This document shows positions 5,688 to 48,062 of a stretch of DNA of 64,000 nucleotides, piece after piece. The translations under genes were made by a program, and so were the position numbers. Source of the stretch: Bacteroides caecimuris (GTDB lineage Bacteria > Bacteroidota > Bacteroidia > Bacteroidales > Bacteroidaceae); the NCBI RefSeq assembly GCF_001688725.2, contig NZ_CP015401.2:2480001-2544000 (forward strand), in the 5' to 3' direction. Position 1 is the first letter of the stretch, and each line of letters begins with the position of its first letter. The notes beneath the pieces are model-generated. The model saw nothing but the letters and a program-made list of their open reading frames with translations, was not told the origin of the DNA and did not search any database.

Positions 5688-5992
5688 GTATTAACAGTTG
5701 CGCTCTTGGCTATTAATAGAAAACTTCCCGCCCATTAAGTCTAAAGTTCCTTCGGACAGGAAGGAAACTTTCTTTTCATTCGATGCAAACTATAAACGCA
5801 AGCTTTGATTATATAATTGCAAGCTTCGTTTTTATAATCAAAGCTTTTGTTTTTATAAACGAAGCTTGCGTTTATAGATTACGGTTAACGAAAAATAAGT
5901 TTACATGCTGATAATAAGAAGTTTACAATTAATGAAAGAGAACTTTTCTATTAATGAATGAAAAGTGGGTTATTAAGAGCCTGCTCCGAGTT
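5688..5992. repeat. Phased 21/22-bp repeat array, locus 1
   Basis: Three units with NNATTAA starts at 5688, 5710 and 5732 (period 22). Four units with TATAA at 5791, 5812, 5833 and 5854 (period 21), each carrying AAGCTT at about 5800, 5821, 5841 and 5862. AAGTTTACA at 5897 and 5919 (period 22) and TATTAA at 5949 and 5971 (period 22). The outer TATAA units form a perfect 16-bp inverted repeat (CTATAAACGCAAGCTT, 5790-5805, and its complement ending near 5877). No coding frame covers it. Besides this array, 5363-6305 holds only the small-RNA candidate. Confidence 0.7.
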
Positions 5993-34082: not shown

Positions 34083-34091
34083 TTCTTTAAA

Positions 34092-34200
<109 letters not shown>

Positions 34201-34296
34201 ATAAGGTTATGACATGATGAAAAGTAAAATATAAAGTATTATTCTCAAAAGAATAATCCGCTAAACGTATATACCCAACCGGTACATATTTGAAAG

Positions 34297-37173
<2,877 letters not shown>

Positions 37174-37330
37174 AAACGTTCTGTCCGTGTATTGGTATTG
37201 GTGTGGAATCGCTTCCGGCCGCCAATATTGCATACCCGGACACGTACGGTTTGATATATACTTTTAGCTCTTACTTTTTATTTTACTTCTTGTACATCAT
37301 GTCAAAGATCGTTTCTCTTTTCAGAGACTG

Positions 37331-37403
37331 TGGAGAATAACGGATTCGAACCGTTGACCCTCTGCGTGCAAGGCAGATGCTCTAGCCAGCTGAGCTAATC
37401 CCC
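37331..37403 (-). tRNA. tRNA-Ala (anticodon TGC)
   Basis: Minus-strand cloverleaf: GGGGGATTAGCTCAGCTGGC, anticodon loop CTTGCAC, T-arm GGTTCGAATCC, discriminator A. CCA is not encoded. It lies in the 16S-23S spacer. Confidence 0.96.
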
Positions 37404-37418
37404 CAAAAGAGTTTCGGA

Positions 37419-37493
37419 GTAGTCCCAGGCAGAGTTGAACTGCCGACCTCTACATTATCAGTGTAGCGCTCTAACCAACTGAGCTATAGGACT
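37419..37493 (-). tRNA. tRNA-Ile (anticodon GAT)
   Basis: Minus-strand AGTCCTATAGCTCAGTTGGT, anticodon CTGATAA, T-arm GGCAGTTCAACTCTGCC, discriminator A. It follows 16S in the usual Ile-Ala spacer order. Confidence 0.96.
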
Positions 37494-37655
37494 AGTTCAA
37501 CCTTGTCTACCTGTGCGTTAGACTCGGCTTCTTGTTTCTCTTGTTTATCTCTATCTATACTTCTATAGATGGTTGATCTATATCTTATAAATAAACAAGT
37601 ACCAGTAGTACAAAAACAGAACCTTGAAAAAGCCATCATTACGGCATCTCTCCAG

Positions 37656-39184
<1,529 letters not shown>

Positions 39185-39938: not shown

Positions 39939-40083
39939 TTGATTGAAGAGACCTATTGGTTCCGGTTGTCCCACATATTGTGGGAAAGTATTCCCGCATA
40001 TTATGGGAATTTGTTCCCAAGTAATAGGGAATCTTTTCCCAAGCAGTAGGGAAACTTTTCCCACAATATATGGGACTGATGCA
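39939..40083. repeat. Phased 22/23-bp palindromic repeat array, locus 2
   Basis: Five units with TCCC starting at 39969, 39992, 40015, 40037 and 40059. Each is an imperfect palindrome of the form TTCCCA...TGGGAA with an A/T core. The first unit and its 30-bp left flank match 2733-2775. No gene covers it. Confidence 0.75.
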
Positions 40084-44843: not shown

Positions 44844-44995
44844 ACTTTATATTTCATTTTTAAGTTTACTACCTATTAAATACGAAGATAGAGAATTATT
44901 TACCTAATTACCTTCATTAAGGCCTGTTTTATTTGCCCGAACGCTGCTTCTATTCAAAACTATATTTGCAAAAAGATTATTGAAGAATTGGGGAT

Positions 44996-45833
44996 CAGTT
45001 GTAATTCTTGGAGATTTGATTCAGGGCAATCACATCCTTAAAATTTAATTCAATTCTATACTGGAATGAATGAGATTTTGTTTTCAATTACTGATTTGCA
45101 TAAGTATAACATGAACTTTTGATTCATAAGTTCCACCAGCTTCACCTTATAACTGAAACATCGATGAATAAGGAGATAACGGGTGAAAGCGTAGGAAAAA
45201 AACAGGTGAAGTCTTCCATTATCGCTTTCACCTTTTGAATTTATTTATACCGATTGCTAGACATATAGAGCCATCATGATGGACATATAGAGCCACCGTG
45301 CTGAATATATAGATGCAATACGGTGAGTATATAGATGTACCAATTCAAATATTAACAGATGAGAGCCAAGGTATTAACAACTGACAACTAGGCTATTAAT
45401 ATCTGACAGTTTATCTGTTAATACCTGACAATGGATTTGCTATAAGCATATTTTCATTAGCTATAATGATATTGGTTTTAGCTCAAAGGATATTTTGAAA
45501 AGACAAGGTGAAACCAATAATGTCCTGTTTCACCTGATTTCACCCCTCGCTTTCACCCGCTATAGCCTTATTCATCGGCATTTCAAGAATCAGGTGAAAT
45601 CGATGAATGGCAATAATTTTATAGTAGCATTGATGATACTTTATTTATAAAGAAAGAGGTAAGTTACGCAGTATTCCGCTATCGAATGAGTCAGAACTGC
45701 ACAGTTTAGCTCATTTTCACACCGGAATGAATCTATTTTGTTAAGGATGTGATTGCCCTGAATCAAATCCCCCAATTTCCAGACTGAGCCCAAAAATAAG
45801 AATTTTAACGCAATCCCCCAAGAATTACAACTG
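44996..45833. repeat. Large imperfect palindrome (about 840 bp) around a 22-bp array
   Basis: Matching inverted segments, from outside in: 44996-45011 with 45818-45833 (16 bp exact); 45013-45041 with 45741-45769 (29 bp exact); 45162-45173 with 45566-45577 (12 exact); 45180-45191 with 45548-45559 (12 exact), the last two spaced equally on both sides. Intervening parts have diverged. TTTCACC/GGTGAAA words recur in both arms. No frame longer than 60 codons is convincing. Confidence 0.8.
45261..45502. repeat. Strict 22-bp repeat array, locus 3
   Basis: Eleven consecutive 22-bp units without indels. Block a (four units from 45261, 45283, 45305, 45327) begins RYATATAGA. Block b (45349, 45371, 45393, 45415) begins NTRTTAA. 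Block c (45437, 45459, 45481) begins with GCTATAA-like sequence. Within a unit the first 8-10 bases are conserved and the rest varies. It lies at the centre of the palindrome. Confidence 0.85.
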
Positions 45834-45911
45834 CCCCCCGTTCCAAATGTGTTCCACTAAAAACAAATCAGCCGCTAACTGTCCGTCAGCAGCTTTCTTA
45901 CACCCTTATTT

Positions 45912-45934
45912 GCGGAGAGGGCGGGTTTTGAACC
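45912..45934 (-). other. tRNA-Ser 3'-end-like segment, left boundary of element A
   Basis: Read on the minus strand: GGTTCAAAACCC, then GCCCTCTCCGC, like the T-arm, acceptor strand and G discriminator of tRNA-Ser. No tRNA body follows on the element side. The plus-strand form GCGGAGAG...GAACC recurs at 53577-53599. Confidence 0.5.
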
Positions 45935-46120
45935 TATAACTCTAACCGCTTATATTTCAGCTACTTTACTTTCAAAATTTCAAATAGGTAACGAAACAGT
46001 AACGATTTTCAACCGTTAAGCCTGTCCAACTTTGACCGCTGTTTGTCTGCCTAACTTTCGGGTTCAAAGATACGGCTTTCTTTTGAAACTCGCAAATATC
46101 TGATAATAAATATTTTTGGG

Positions 46121-46173
46121 TTAGTGCAAGGTGCAAGCTATATATATAAATATATACTTGCACCTTGCACTAA
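46121..46173. promoter_or_regulatory. 17-bp perfect inverted repeat upstream of tetR
   Basis: TTAGTGCAAGGTGCAAG (46121-46137) and its exact complement (46157-46173) enclose an A/T loop that is itself nearly palindromic. On the minus strand a T run precedes the stem rather than following it; on the plus strand an A run follows. So it is not a standard terminator for either side. The ATG of tetR is 70 bp away. Confidence 0.6.
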
Positions 46174-46243
46174 AAAAAAGCACTGGAGTACAAATGGTTA
46201 AAACAAAATCCGTATCTTCGTAACCAATTAAAAACTAACATGT

Positions 46244-46858
46244 ATGATAATAACTAACCGTGAAGAAGTAATAGATAAAGCGTTCGGCGTATTTGTCAGG
46301 ATGAACTACGAGAAAGCAAGTATCATCACGCTTGCCAAAGCCTGCGGGGTGACAAAAACGGGTATCGTTTATTATTTTCCGCACAAGCTGGATTTGTTCA
46401 TGGCTGTGGCGGACAAATACGTGTTAAAAATGCACGAACCGGGAAACAAGTTTGCCACTCCTGCCGATACGTTGGCAGAGTTCATCGGTCAATACGTGGC
46501 GGGGGTAGCCGCTTCCATGAAAAGGATTGTTGAACTGATTGGCGACAATGGCGACCCGCATGATTGTAGCCCCAACTTCTACTACTTTCATTTCCTGTCA
46601 CAAGTGCGTATGTACTATCCGGGCATCAGGCAGAAAATCGAAAGGATGTTCAGCCACGACCATGACCTGTGGGCGAAAGTCGTGCAGAAAGCAAAAGACA
46701 GCGGGGAAATCAGGAGCGACACGGACGTGAAGAAAACGGCTACCATGTTCCGGCAAATGTTTTTAGGACTGTCATACGAACAAGCATTTCTGAACGGTTT
46801 GAACGTGGACGAACTGGCAGAAAACTTTCGCTATATCTATTCGCTGCTTAAAGCCTGA
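46244..46858 (+). CDS. TetR/AcrR-family transcriptional regulator
   Basis: 204 residues. The N-terminal HTH is typical (EEVIDKAFGVFVRMNYEKAS; ITLAKACGVTKTGIVYYFPH), and the C-terminal helical domain is the effector-binding part. No efflux or enzyme gene, the usual TetR partner, is beside it; the next gene is the recombinase, 98 bp away. A 20-bp palindrome of TetR-operator type lies in that gap, so control of the recombinase is plausible. Confidence 0.9.
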   Translation: MIITNREEVIDKAFGVFVRMNYEKASIITLAKACGVTKTGIVYYFPHKLDLFMAVADKYVLKMHEPGNKFATPADTLAEFIGQYVAGVAASMKRIVELIGDNGDPHDCSPNFYYFHFLSQVRMYYPGIRQKIERMFSHDHDLWAKVVQKAKDSGEIRSDTDVKKTATMFRQMFLGLSYEQAFLNGLNVDELAENFRYIYSLLKA

Positions 46859-46887
46859 TACAGTTTTGTTTTTTTAACTTCCATTAT

Positions 46888-46907
46888 TTTTGAACGCATG
46901 TTCAAAA
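46888..46907. promoter_or_regulatory. Candidate TetR operator in the recombinase promoter
   Basis: TTTTGAACGCATGTTCAAAA is a perfect 20-bp palindrome (TGAAC-GCAT-GTTCA core) ending 16 bp before the TATCTTTG box at 46924-46931, i.e. over the -33 region. Confidence 0.5.
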
Positions 46908-46923
46908 TGTGGCGTTTTTGTTT

Positions 46924-46931
46924 TATCTTTG
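46924..46931 (+). promoter_or_regulatory. -7 box of the recombinase gene
   Basis: TATCTTTG, 24 bp before the ATG at 46956. It shows that the longer frame opening at 46890 is not the start. Confidence 0.55.
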
Positions 46932-46955
46932 GAGCATGAAGCAAAATTCAGCGAC

Positions 46956-48062
46956 ATGGATAAGGTTCAGAAACAAAGAGGAAGCATCGTGCTACACAAA
47001 GAAACAAGGGACGGTGCAGACTACATACGGGTAGAATATGCGAACAGTCAGGCTGTCGCCCGACTGCTCGCCCAAGACACGGGCATGAAAATGGCTGGCA
47101 ACGGTTCTGCATACATAGCGTCAGCCGCTTTCAGCCTGCCGGATTTCTACGACCGCTATTCACCCCACGCCTATATTGATTACAGCCGGGTTTACGTGCG
47201 GCATCCCAAACCCAAAAGGGAATACACACTGCCAAAAGGCTATCTCGAACTGCTGGAACAAAAGCGTTACAGCCCTTCGACCGTCAAAACATACCGTGCC
47301 TATTTCAGCGATTTCATGGAATATCACAAGGGACGGAACATCGACCGCCTGAAAGTGCCGGACATCAACAAGTACATACTCTATCTTGTGAACGAGAAGA
47401 AAATCTCGGTGTCGCAACAGAATATGCGCATCAATGCTATCAAGTTCTATTACGAGCAGGTGAAAGGCGGCAAACGGCAATACTACGGCGGTATCACCCG
47501 TGCCAAAGAGTACAAGAGCCTGCCCGAAGTGTTGAGCAAGAATGAAATTAAGCGCATCCTTGCACAAATTTCCAACATCAAGCATCACTGCATGATTTCA
47601 TTGGTTTACTCTGCCGGACTTAGAAGAAGCGAATTGCTTAACCTGACCCCGCAGGACATCAACAGCGAAACAATGTCGGTTCGCATCATGGGCAAGGGGA
47701 AGAAATGCCGTTATTCGCTCCTTTCGCCCAAGTTGCTGGAAGAACTACGGCACTACTTCCGGGAATATCGTCCACAAAAATGGTTGTTTGAAGGCGAAAC
47801 ACCCGGAGAGCAATATTCGGCAAGTGCATTGGTGAAAGTGCTGAAAGAAGCCGCACATCGTGCAGGCATCAAACACCGGGTACACGTACACATGCTGCGT
47901 CACTCCTTTGCCACACACTTGTTGGAACAGGGAACAGACCTGCACACGATACAGGAATTGCTGGGACATAACGACATCAAGACCACAACCATTTATCTTC
48001 ATGTGTCAAGTGCCCATAAAGCAAAAATCCCTAATCCTCTTGATACACTGGATAATTCGTGA
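46956..48062 (+). CDS. XerD-like tyrosine recombinase with extra N-terminal domain (rAID-type)
   Basis: 368 residues from MDKVQKQRGS. An N-terminal domain of about 95 residues precedes the SAM-like core-binding domain (LELLEQKRYSPSTVKTYRAY). Catalytic residues are all present: Arg in AGLRRSELL (about 223), Lys in MGKGKK (about 247), HMLR (H312, R315), LLGH (H338) and Tyr in TTIYLHV (about 347). The insertion typical of integron IntI is absent. It is followed by small AT-rich genes with palindromic sites between them. This arrangement matches the recombinase-associated acquired interbacterial defence (rAID-1) clusters of Bacteroidales, where the recombinase is thought to shuffle immunity genes. 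Confidence 0.85.
   Translation: MDKVQKQRGSIVLHKETRDGADYIRVEYANSQAVARLLAQDTGMKMAGNGSAYIASAAFSLPDFYDRYSPHAYIDYSRVYVRHPKPKREYTLPKGYLELLEQKRYSPSTVKTYRAYFSDFMEYHKGRNIDRLKVPDINKYILYLVNEKKISVSQQNMRINAIKFYYEQVKGGKRQYYGGITRAKEYKSLPEVLSKNEIKRILAQISNIKHHCMISLVYSAGLRRSELLNLTPQDINSETMSVRIMGKGKKCRYSLLSPKLLEELRHYFREYRPQKWLFEGETPGEQYSASALVKVLKEAAHRAGIKHRVHVHMLRHSFATHLLEQGTDLHTIQELLGHNDIKTTTIYLHVSSAHKAKIPNPLDTLDNS

Follow-up and report, generated by a model that had tools for sequence, protein, structure and literature searches.

The locus and its repeat array

The locus described here is an array of short repeats at positions 45261–45502 of a 64,000-nucleotide stretch of the Bacteroides caecimuris genome (contig NZ_CP015401.2, positions 2,480,001 to 2,544,000; hereafter the window, from whose first letter coordinates are counted). 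The array is the centre of a small, non-coding, dispersed, inverted-repeat element of the kind known as miniature inverted-repeat transposable elements (MITEs). A heparinase-like gene and genes for a TetR regulator and a tyrosine recombinase flank this MITE-like element; no open reading frame (ORF) of at least 60 aa is listed in 44908–45971. The element is short, non-coding and dispersed, as a MITE should be. Its parts are the following.

44988..45041, + strand: left outer terminal inverted repeat, resembling the end of a resident ISL3-type insertion sequence
45060..45722, no strand: core dispersed element, ends set by eye from the copies, degenerate here and related to CGGTGCGGAAATGA
45141..45234, + strand: left inverted arm, pairing with 45505–45598 (74% complementary)
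45261..45348, no strand: block 1, four 22-bp units with a TATATAGATGCA-like core (TGCATCTATATA)
45349..45436, no strand: block 2, four 22-bp units with a GTTAATACCTGA-like core (GTCAGGTATTAATACCTGAC)
45439..45501, no strand: block 3, three 21-bp units with a ATTAGCTATAATGATAT-like core, the last one degenerate
45505..45598, − strand: right inverted arm, partner of 45141–45234
45741..45782, − strand: right outer terminal inverted repeat, ending in CTGAGCC
45783..45839, no strand: probable remnant of another ISL3-type end adjoining the element, with exact 31-nt matches elsewhere in the genome

Across 45261–45502, 118 of 220 letter pairs are identical at a lag of 22 bp, compared with 61.7 ± 6.5 in 5000 dinucleotide shuffles, none of which scored as high, and the value at the best lag within 10–60 was equalled by 0/2000 shuffles. 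Blocks 1 and 2 have 45/66 and 46/66 lag-22 matches, respectively (0/5000 shuffles as high in each case). Block 3 carries no lag-22 signal (10/44 matches; 4544/5000 shuffles do equally well); its units GCTATAAGCATATTTTCATTA, GCTATAATGATATTGGTTTTA and GCTCAAAGGATATTTTGAAAA start at 45439, 45460 and 45481, and the same period of 21 bp is present in another copy of the element (L002). The first-pass annotation, made from the window alone, had described eleven consecutive 22-bp units without an indel; this holds for the eight units of blocks 1 and 2 and fails for block 3, which is off the lattice because its period is 21 bp. The conserved heads and variable tails that it ascribed to the units are borne out by 13 aligned copies of the element, in which conservation depends on the position within the unit (p = 0.009 for block 1, p = 0.006 for block 2), the TATA and TTA heads being invariant and the tails variable. 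Dyad symmetry in the array is seen at p = 0.033, uncorrected, and the blocks of 4, 4 and 3 conform to a pattern of phased, dyad-symmetric units of 21–23 bp, about four per array.

Several explanations could be discarded. The array is not coding, as no ORF of at least 60 aa is listed across it and 22 is not a multiple of three. It is not a CRISPR (clustered regularly interspaced short palindromic repeats) array, since the units abut at 22 or 21 bp, differ among themselves and lack repeat–spacer alternation. At the gathering thresholds of Rfam, the window yields rRNA and tRNA only.

Copies and mobility of the element

Seven long copies, including that in the window, are found in the same genome (G000; query 45000–45850). 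Some match to the element is present in 30 of 149 sampled genomes of the genus, with long matches (at least 435 bp), apart from those of the own genome, in G009, G085, G058, G012, G110, G021 and G127; G090 has one long match of 64% identity. In a family-level sample (121 genomes, some of them of the genus), two genomes from outside the genus match over short stretches only, and in the phylum-level sample 0/60 other genomes have a match. Differences between copies comprise entire units: in L002, blocks 1 and 3 each contain one extra unit, and L005 has more again.

The outer ends of the element match an insertion sequence with a DDE_Tnp_ISL3 transposase, i.e., terminal inverted repeats are shared with a resident mobile element, again as in MITEs. 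Long, imperfect inverted ends that start with GGCTCA are found in the G009 copy together with a perfect 8-bp duplication; ISL3 elements produce 8-bp duplications. The other 13 of 14 copies, the window copy among them, lack a duplication of that length, the only one considered. The outer ends are absent from copies L002–L005 and L007 in alignments within the own genome, and hence the core seems able to spread without them too. In several copies the end of the core resembles CGGTGCGGAAATGA, which in its exact form is present at two places in the genome, each next to a 22-bp array of another family (TTCCC and CTATAG); no array lies near the four sites with one mismatch to it. The earlier statement that no known repeat class explains the array was too strong, given a MITE-like element built like BrickBuilt of Porphyromonas gingivalis; the inverted arms on both sides and the 21-bp spacing in block 3 were absent from that first description. 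In two genomes (G106, G092) the matched parts of the left gene and of the right-hand island are about 260 bp apart and enclose no element, a weak empty-site comparison, as the intervening sequence differs from the window flanks.

To the right, the left end of this other mobile island occupies 45905–47000 and beyond (TetR regulator, 46244–46858; tyrosine recombinase, 46890–48062), with 93–94% identical stretches in G106, G139, G138, G030 and G092; a copy at G000:668627-669702 is 96% identical. The sole plasmid match, NZ_OY725936.1 (L094–L096), is filed as a B. finegoldii plasmid and carries dnaN, recN, hisA, hisH, hisF and many metabolic genes; by gene content it looks like a piece of a chromosome. 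The sole match in the phage collection is MT835639, an unannotated and unverified record.

A genus-wide class of 22-bp arrays

The array is one case of a genus-wide class of phased, often palindromic arrays. A scan of 864 kb of the genome, made up of the window and 40 stretches of 20 kb taken at even distances (88 comparisons, z > 5, lags 10–60), found 38 periodic intergenic stretches, 19 of them at lag 22 and 6 at lag 21, with at most two at any other lag. In total, 25/38 stretches have a period of 21 or 22. The refutation proposed in the first-pass annotation, namely that similar periodicity arises at random in intergenic sequence rich in A/T, is inapplicable, as the genome's period spectrum has its peak at 22. 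Lag 22 accounts for 5/8 and lag 21 for 1/8 periodic stretches both in B. finegoldii (150 kb) and in G085 (200 kb), while in two further genera of the family 3/6 and 2/8 stretches are at lag 21 or 22. Periodic stretches at lag 21–22 number 0/10 in G535, and G509 and E. coli (200 kb each) gave no intergenic periodic calls. In G508, from another bacterial family of the class, the proportion is 4/16, three of the four being a GTCATTGCGAGGA-type dispersed repeat (L146, L150; spacing near 22) that is probably a different repeat class.

Arrays occupy 24/210 gaps of at least 130 bp in the G000 sample, at similar frequencies in convergent (6/47), divergent (6/61) and co-directional (12/102) gaps; as there is no clear bias, a function linked to the orientation of the genes was rejected. 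The families of arrays have different sequences and include GTTTC-N-GAAAC, TTCCC-N-GGGAA, ACTATAGT, GACTGGAGTTGTC, CACTGGAGTG, AAGCTT at 21 bp, and others. Units are palindromic above chance in 40/59 arrays (p ≤ 0.05, uncorrected, a few near-duplicate loci included). Searches of open-licence papers turned up none describing such arrays. Two more arrays lie in the window.

39968..40076, no strand: second array, palindromic TTCCC-N7/8-GGGAA units of 22 bp, with array-only copies elsewhere
5791..5966, no strand: third array, composite, with 22-bp units after 21-bp AAGCTT units, within a multi-copy element

The TTCCC array is 88% identical to that of L088 over 119 bp, which is about the extent of the array, so the block was copied whole. 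It is situated upstream of an rRNA operon (34090–39184), and a copy together with its flanks (93–94%) is found in L083.

Constraint on cores and spacing in the ACTATAGT family

In six BLAST-picked ACTATAGT copies from five genomes, the four cores, spaced at 22 bp, agree in 475/480 letter pairs, compared with 269/630 in the linkers and 344/480 and 779/1320 in the flanks. Linker identity is 52% in 11 arrays taken in their best orientation, which were selected by core and whose orientation is ambiguous where the array is palindromic. A comparison of 16 arrays gave 97.2% identity for the core, 52.1% for the linker and a spacing of 22 in 43/43 cases; these arrays were picked by core, with spacings near 22 favoured, and 5/16 look like other families. 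Hence, the argument rests on the BLAST-picked copies and on a scan with free spacing.

The latter looked for three ACTATAGT with gaps of 4–26 bp in a species-genome collection; at least 120 loci fit this pattern, and those listed were grouped by record title and, with several loci per genome, are not independent. Among the loci listed, those with labels of Bacteroides, Prevotella, Phocaeicola or Bacteroidales type have the spacing (22,22) in 67/76 cases, (23,23) in four, (21,21) in two and another in three. The four other Bacteroidales loci include none at (22,22), and outside Bacteroidales this spacing is found in 0/37. A metagenome-assembled genome labelled Bacillota has it in 3/3 loci (L304, L330, L338), and is mislabelled, a mixed bin, or a case of transfer. 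Arrays of the Bacteroides-type group contain 3, 4, 5 and 6 sites in 11, 51, 3 and 2 cases, respectively. In 55 arrays with four sites, pairing between the two flanks far exceeds permutation (1462 versus 1128 ± 20), as would be expected of transposon ends or a hairpin. A second protein cluster near ACTATAGT loci, SusC-like by appearance, comprises 11 proteins in 9 loci at 233–1592 bp (first ten distances).

A viral origin of the arrays was rejected: in viral contigs, most ACTATAGT triplets are spaced differently, with (22,22) in 2/67 loci, and the GTTTC pattern is present in one viral contig. The commonest spacing in these 67 viral stretches (L380–L446) is 26, and they are perhaps phage promoters.

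Arrays upstream of HU-HIG genes

Proteins adjoining arrays belong to the HU-HIG family (PF18291), and TIGR01201 (HU_rel) is above the cut-off for two of four such proteins. Three Bacteroides genomes have 22 to 34 HU-HIG matches each. In three Bacteroides genomes, an array lies within 400 bp upstream of 30/35 genes for long HU-HIG proteins, compared with 24/203 gap-matched controls; for short HU-HIG proteins the proportion is 4/35. The arrays are situated 14–225 bp upstream of the long HU-HIG starts, and the array core is kept between HU-HIG orthologues.

Two sequences from the window recur at HU-HIG loci. The unit profile of the array at 5791–5966 matches the array upstream of the HU-HIG gene of L490 in the same genome (4.06, compared with 4.60 against itself). 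The core of block 3 occurs five times at 21-bp spacing in an HU-HIG region with genes for a DUF4248 protein, an HU-HIG protein and an amidase (L487; G000:1694993-1697355), and its motif is present in similar form, likewise at 21-bp spacing, in L512 (G110) and L531 (G085), which look like corresponding loci by upstream sequence and protein length. Among the ORFs of many fetched loci, an HU-HIG profile matched 12, none of them in L031–L050. Recurrent neighbours of the own families of the array at 45261–45502 and of the GTTTC family (L031–L050, L184–L223) amount to 29 ORFs with an upstream array, which fall into 20 clusters, the largest made up of four near-identical loci.

A sequence search of the PDB with an HU-HIG protein returned 0 matches, no paper on DNA sites of HU-HIG proteins was found in the open-licence literature, and the available portions of the HU-HIG family descriptions give no cognate DNA sites. 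A 2017 study reportedly proposed that this HU expansion serves mobile-element recognition in Bacteroidetes.

Possible function and competing explanations

The observations to be explained are the phasing, the dispersal, the gain and loss of whole units, the conservation of cores in one family whose linkers drift, and the linkage to long HU-HIG genes. On balance, we favour the explanation that the arrays are phased, same-face, putative binding arrays for long HU-HIG proteins that have also been copied into MITE-like elements. Under this scheme, the three blocks would be three phased arrays of recognition sites, about four sites each, spaced at 22, 22 and 21 bp; as the sites are two helical turns apart, all sites of a block would face one side of the DNA. 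Arrays of the class would be recognised by dimeric, sequence-specific DNA-binding proteins, and the best candidates are the long HU-HIG proteins of Bacteroides, consisting of an HU domain and a predicted C-terminal winged helix. As some arrays lie directly before HU-family genes, the class probably represents landing strips for HU-like proteins. The array directly upstream of most long HU-HIG genes examined may serve autoregulation, and dispersed copies, some of which share HU-HIG-upstream cores and which travel in MITE-like elements, would most likely be coated or bent in a way that silences or marks those elements.

The initial suggestion of a phased binding array for a nucleoid protein fits the class, given the 30/35 long HU-HIG genes; as to the blocks of the array itself, it fits through the motif of block 3 only, and binding is putative. 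Nothing pointing to chromosome partition, the other role suggested there, was found, no search aimed at it having been made. A number of results weigh against the HU-HIG explanation. Of 33 upstream arrays, none matches block 1, block 2 or the TTCCC family, and in 80 HU-HIG regions neither these nor GTTTC were found in phased form, apart from a single block-2 pair at a spacing of 66 in L495; hence the step from the class to blocks 1 and 2 is an inference. Only 9/57 arrays score above 2.9 against the 28 upstream arrays of long HU-HIG proteins, one of them (L055) being itself an upstream array, so other proteins may serve most array families. In L487 the block 3 motif follows the DUF4248 gene on its 3′ side, with about 680 bp between motif and HU-HIG start; the HU-HIG protein there is short and Gly-rich. 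The winged helix is predicted from one structure model, whose HU half is poor, from PF22168 in one of two HU-HIG proteins and from a Pfam family description, with a C-terminal Pfam match in 0/10 HU-HIG proteins of the own genome. Motif and protein identity are weakly correlated over 286 paralogue pairs (rho 0.16 for HU, 0.11 for the C-terminal part), and motifs differ between two HU-HIG proteins whose C-terminal parts are 75% alike. Column heterogeneity within arrays hardly exceeds uniform decay (p ≤ 0.05 in 5/57 arrays; the observed sum reached in 28/400 simulations; one of three long arrays heterogeneous), and in a GTTTC array from two species, arms (50/55) and loops (33/40) differ little, with the flank at 103/125. 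The 35 long HU-HIG proteins and 11 ACTATAGT loci include orthologues and near-duplicates, which lowers the number of independent cases. The association is weak in other genera (2/15 in G396, 0/1 in G400).

Three other explanations were considered. The arrays could be local operators and nothing else, i.e., tandem operators of the adjoining gene with functionless relics as dispersed copies; the first half of this proposal overlaps with the HU-HIG explanation, and the short distance to long HU-HIG starts and the motif kept between orthologues speak for it. As a whole we regard it as rather unlikely, since 6/24 arrays of the G000 sample are in convergent gaps and the cores of BLAST-picked ACTATAGT copies are near-identical while their linkers differ. 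A plain minisatellite inside a BrickBuilt-like MITE, generated by slippage or unequal exchange, mobilised by the resident ISL3-type transposase and devoid of binding function, would agree with the inverted arms, the dispersed copies, the gain and loss of whole units, the ISL3-matching ends with an 8-bp target duplication in 1/14 copies, the same architecture in BrickBuilt, and the little column heterogeneity inside single arrays. However, slippage alone does not explain one period across many unrelated unit sequences, palindromic cores that stay conserved while the linkers drift without changing in length, four sites as a rule in ACTATAGT arrays, or the position before long HU-HIG genes, and we consider this origin unlikely.

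Finally, the arrays might act as hairpins in RNA or single-stranded DNA (transcript stabilisers, processing or transposition intermediates) instead of as double-stranded sites. The inverted arms would suit such a role, as would slight within-unit covariation (1328 versus 1301 ± 14 and 1332 versus 1293 ± 14), whole-block palindromes above the 95% level of the background in 14/57 arrays, and the outer flanks of 55 ACTATAGT arrays, which pair far above permutation, although paired outer ends are expected of transposon ends too. Still, array frequency is about alike in gaps of all three orientations, ACTATAGT cores are kept letter by letter without compensation, and hairpins do not require a strict period at constant linker length; this makes the hairpin explanation quite improbable.

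An extension of the HU-HIG explanation, which we put forward tentatively, is that each HU–winged-helix paralogue might recognise its own palindromic core, present about four times at two-turn spacing, control its own gene and coat or silence elements that carry the same array. Such a system could conceivably be, in logic, a bacterial counterpart of the vertebrate zinc-finger repressors that track transposons. If so, the element at 45060–45722, whose three blocks differ in core, would have three such proteins reading it simultaneously. Taken together, array and gene provide a testable protein–site code for a family that has received little study and occurs in common gut bacteria; they would explain the genome-wide 22-bp periodicity of Bacteroides intergenic DNA, and they offer a route to asking whether bacteria track mobile elements with HU-type proteins.

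Comparison with known systems

Like the units of the array, iterons of plasmid origins are helically phased direct repeats of about 22 bp. Unlike at such origins, no initiator is recognised among the genes beside the element (heparinase-like, TetR, tyrosine recombinase), and members of the class are found at many places in the chromosome; iterons were rejected on these grounds. Repetitive extragenic palindromes and the mosaic elements built of them (REP/BIME) are dispersed intergenic palindromes paired with a chromosomal protein, the RAYT transposase. Dispersed intergenic palindromes and a chromosomal protein are found here too; in contrast to REP/BIME, a single period is common to many unrelated cores, and the gene linked to them encodes an HU-HIG protein and not a Y1 transposase.

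The available portion of the description of BrickBuilt, a MITE of P. gingivalis, names neither a binding protein nor dyad-symmetric units, and Bacteroides is absent from its main text (PMC4596501). The ends of BrickBuilt resemble the IS5-family sequences ISPg1/ISPg9, whereas those of the element described here are of ISL3 type (PMC4596501). Its core is made of a single family of 23-nt units, while the units of the present array, which abut without spacers, have periods of 22, 22 and 21 bp (PMC4596501). As far as that description goes, both elements are dispersed, intergenic and non-coding, have inverted-repeat ends resembling a resident insertion sequence, and contain a core in which units of some two helical turns follow one another head to tail (PMC4596501). 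BrickBuilt is the nearest described object.
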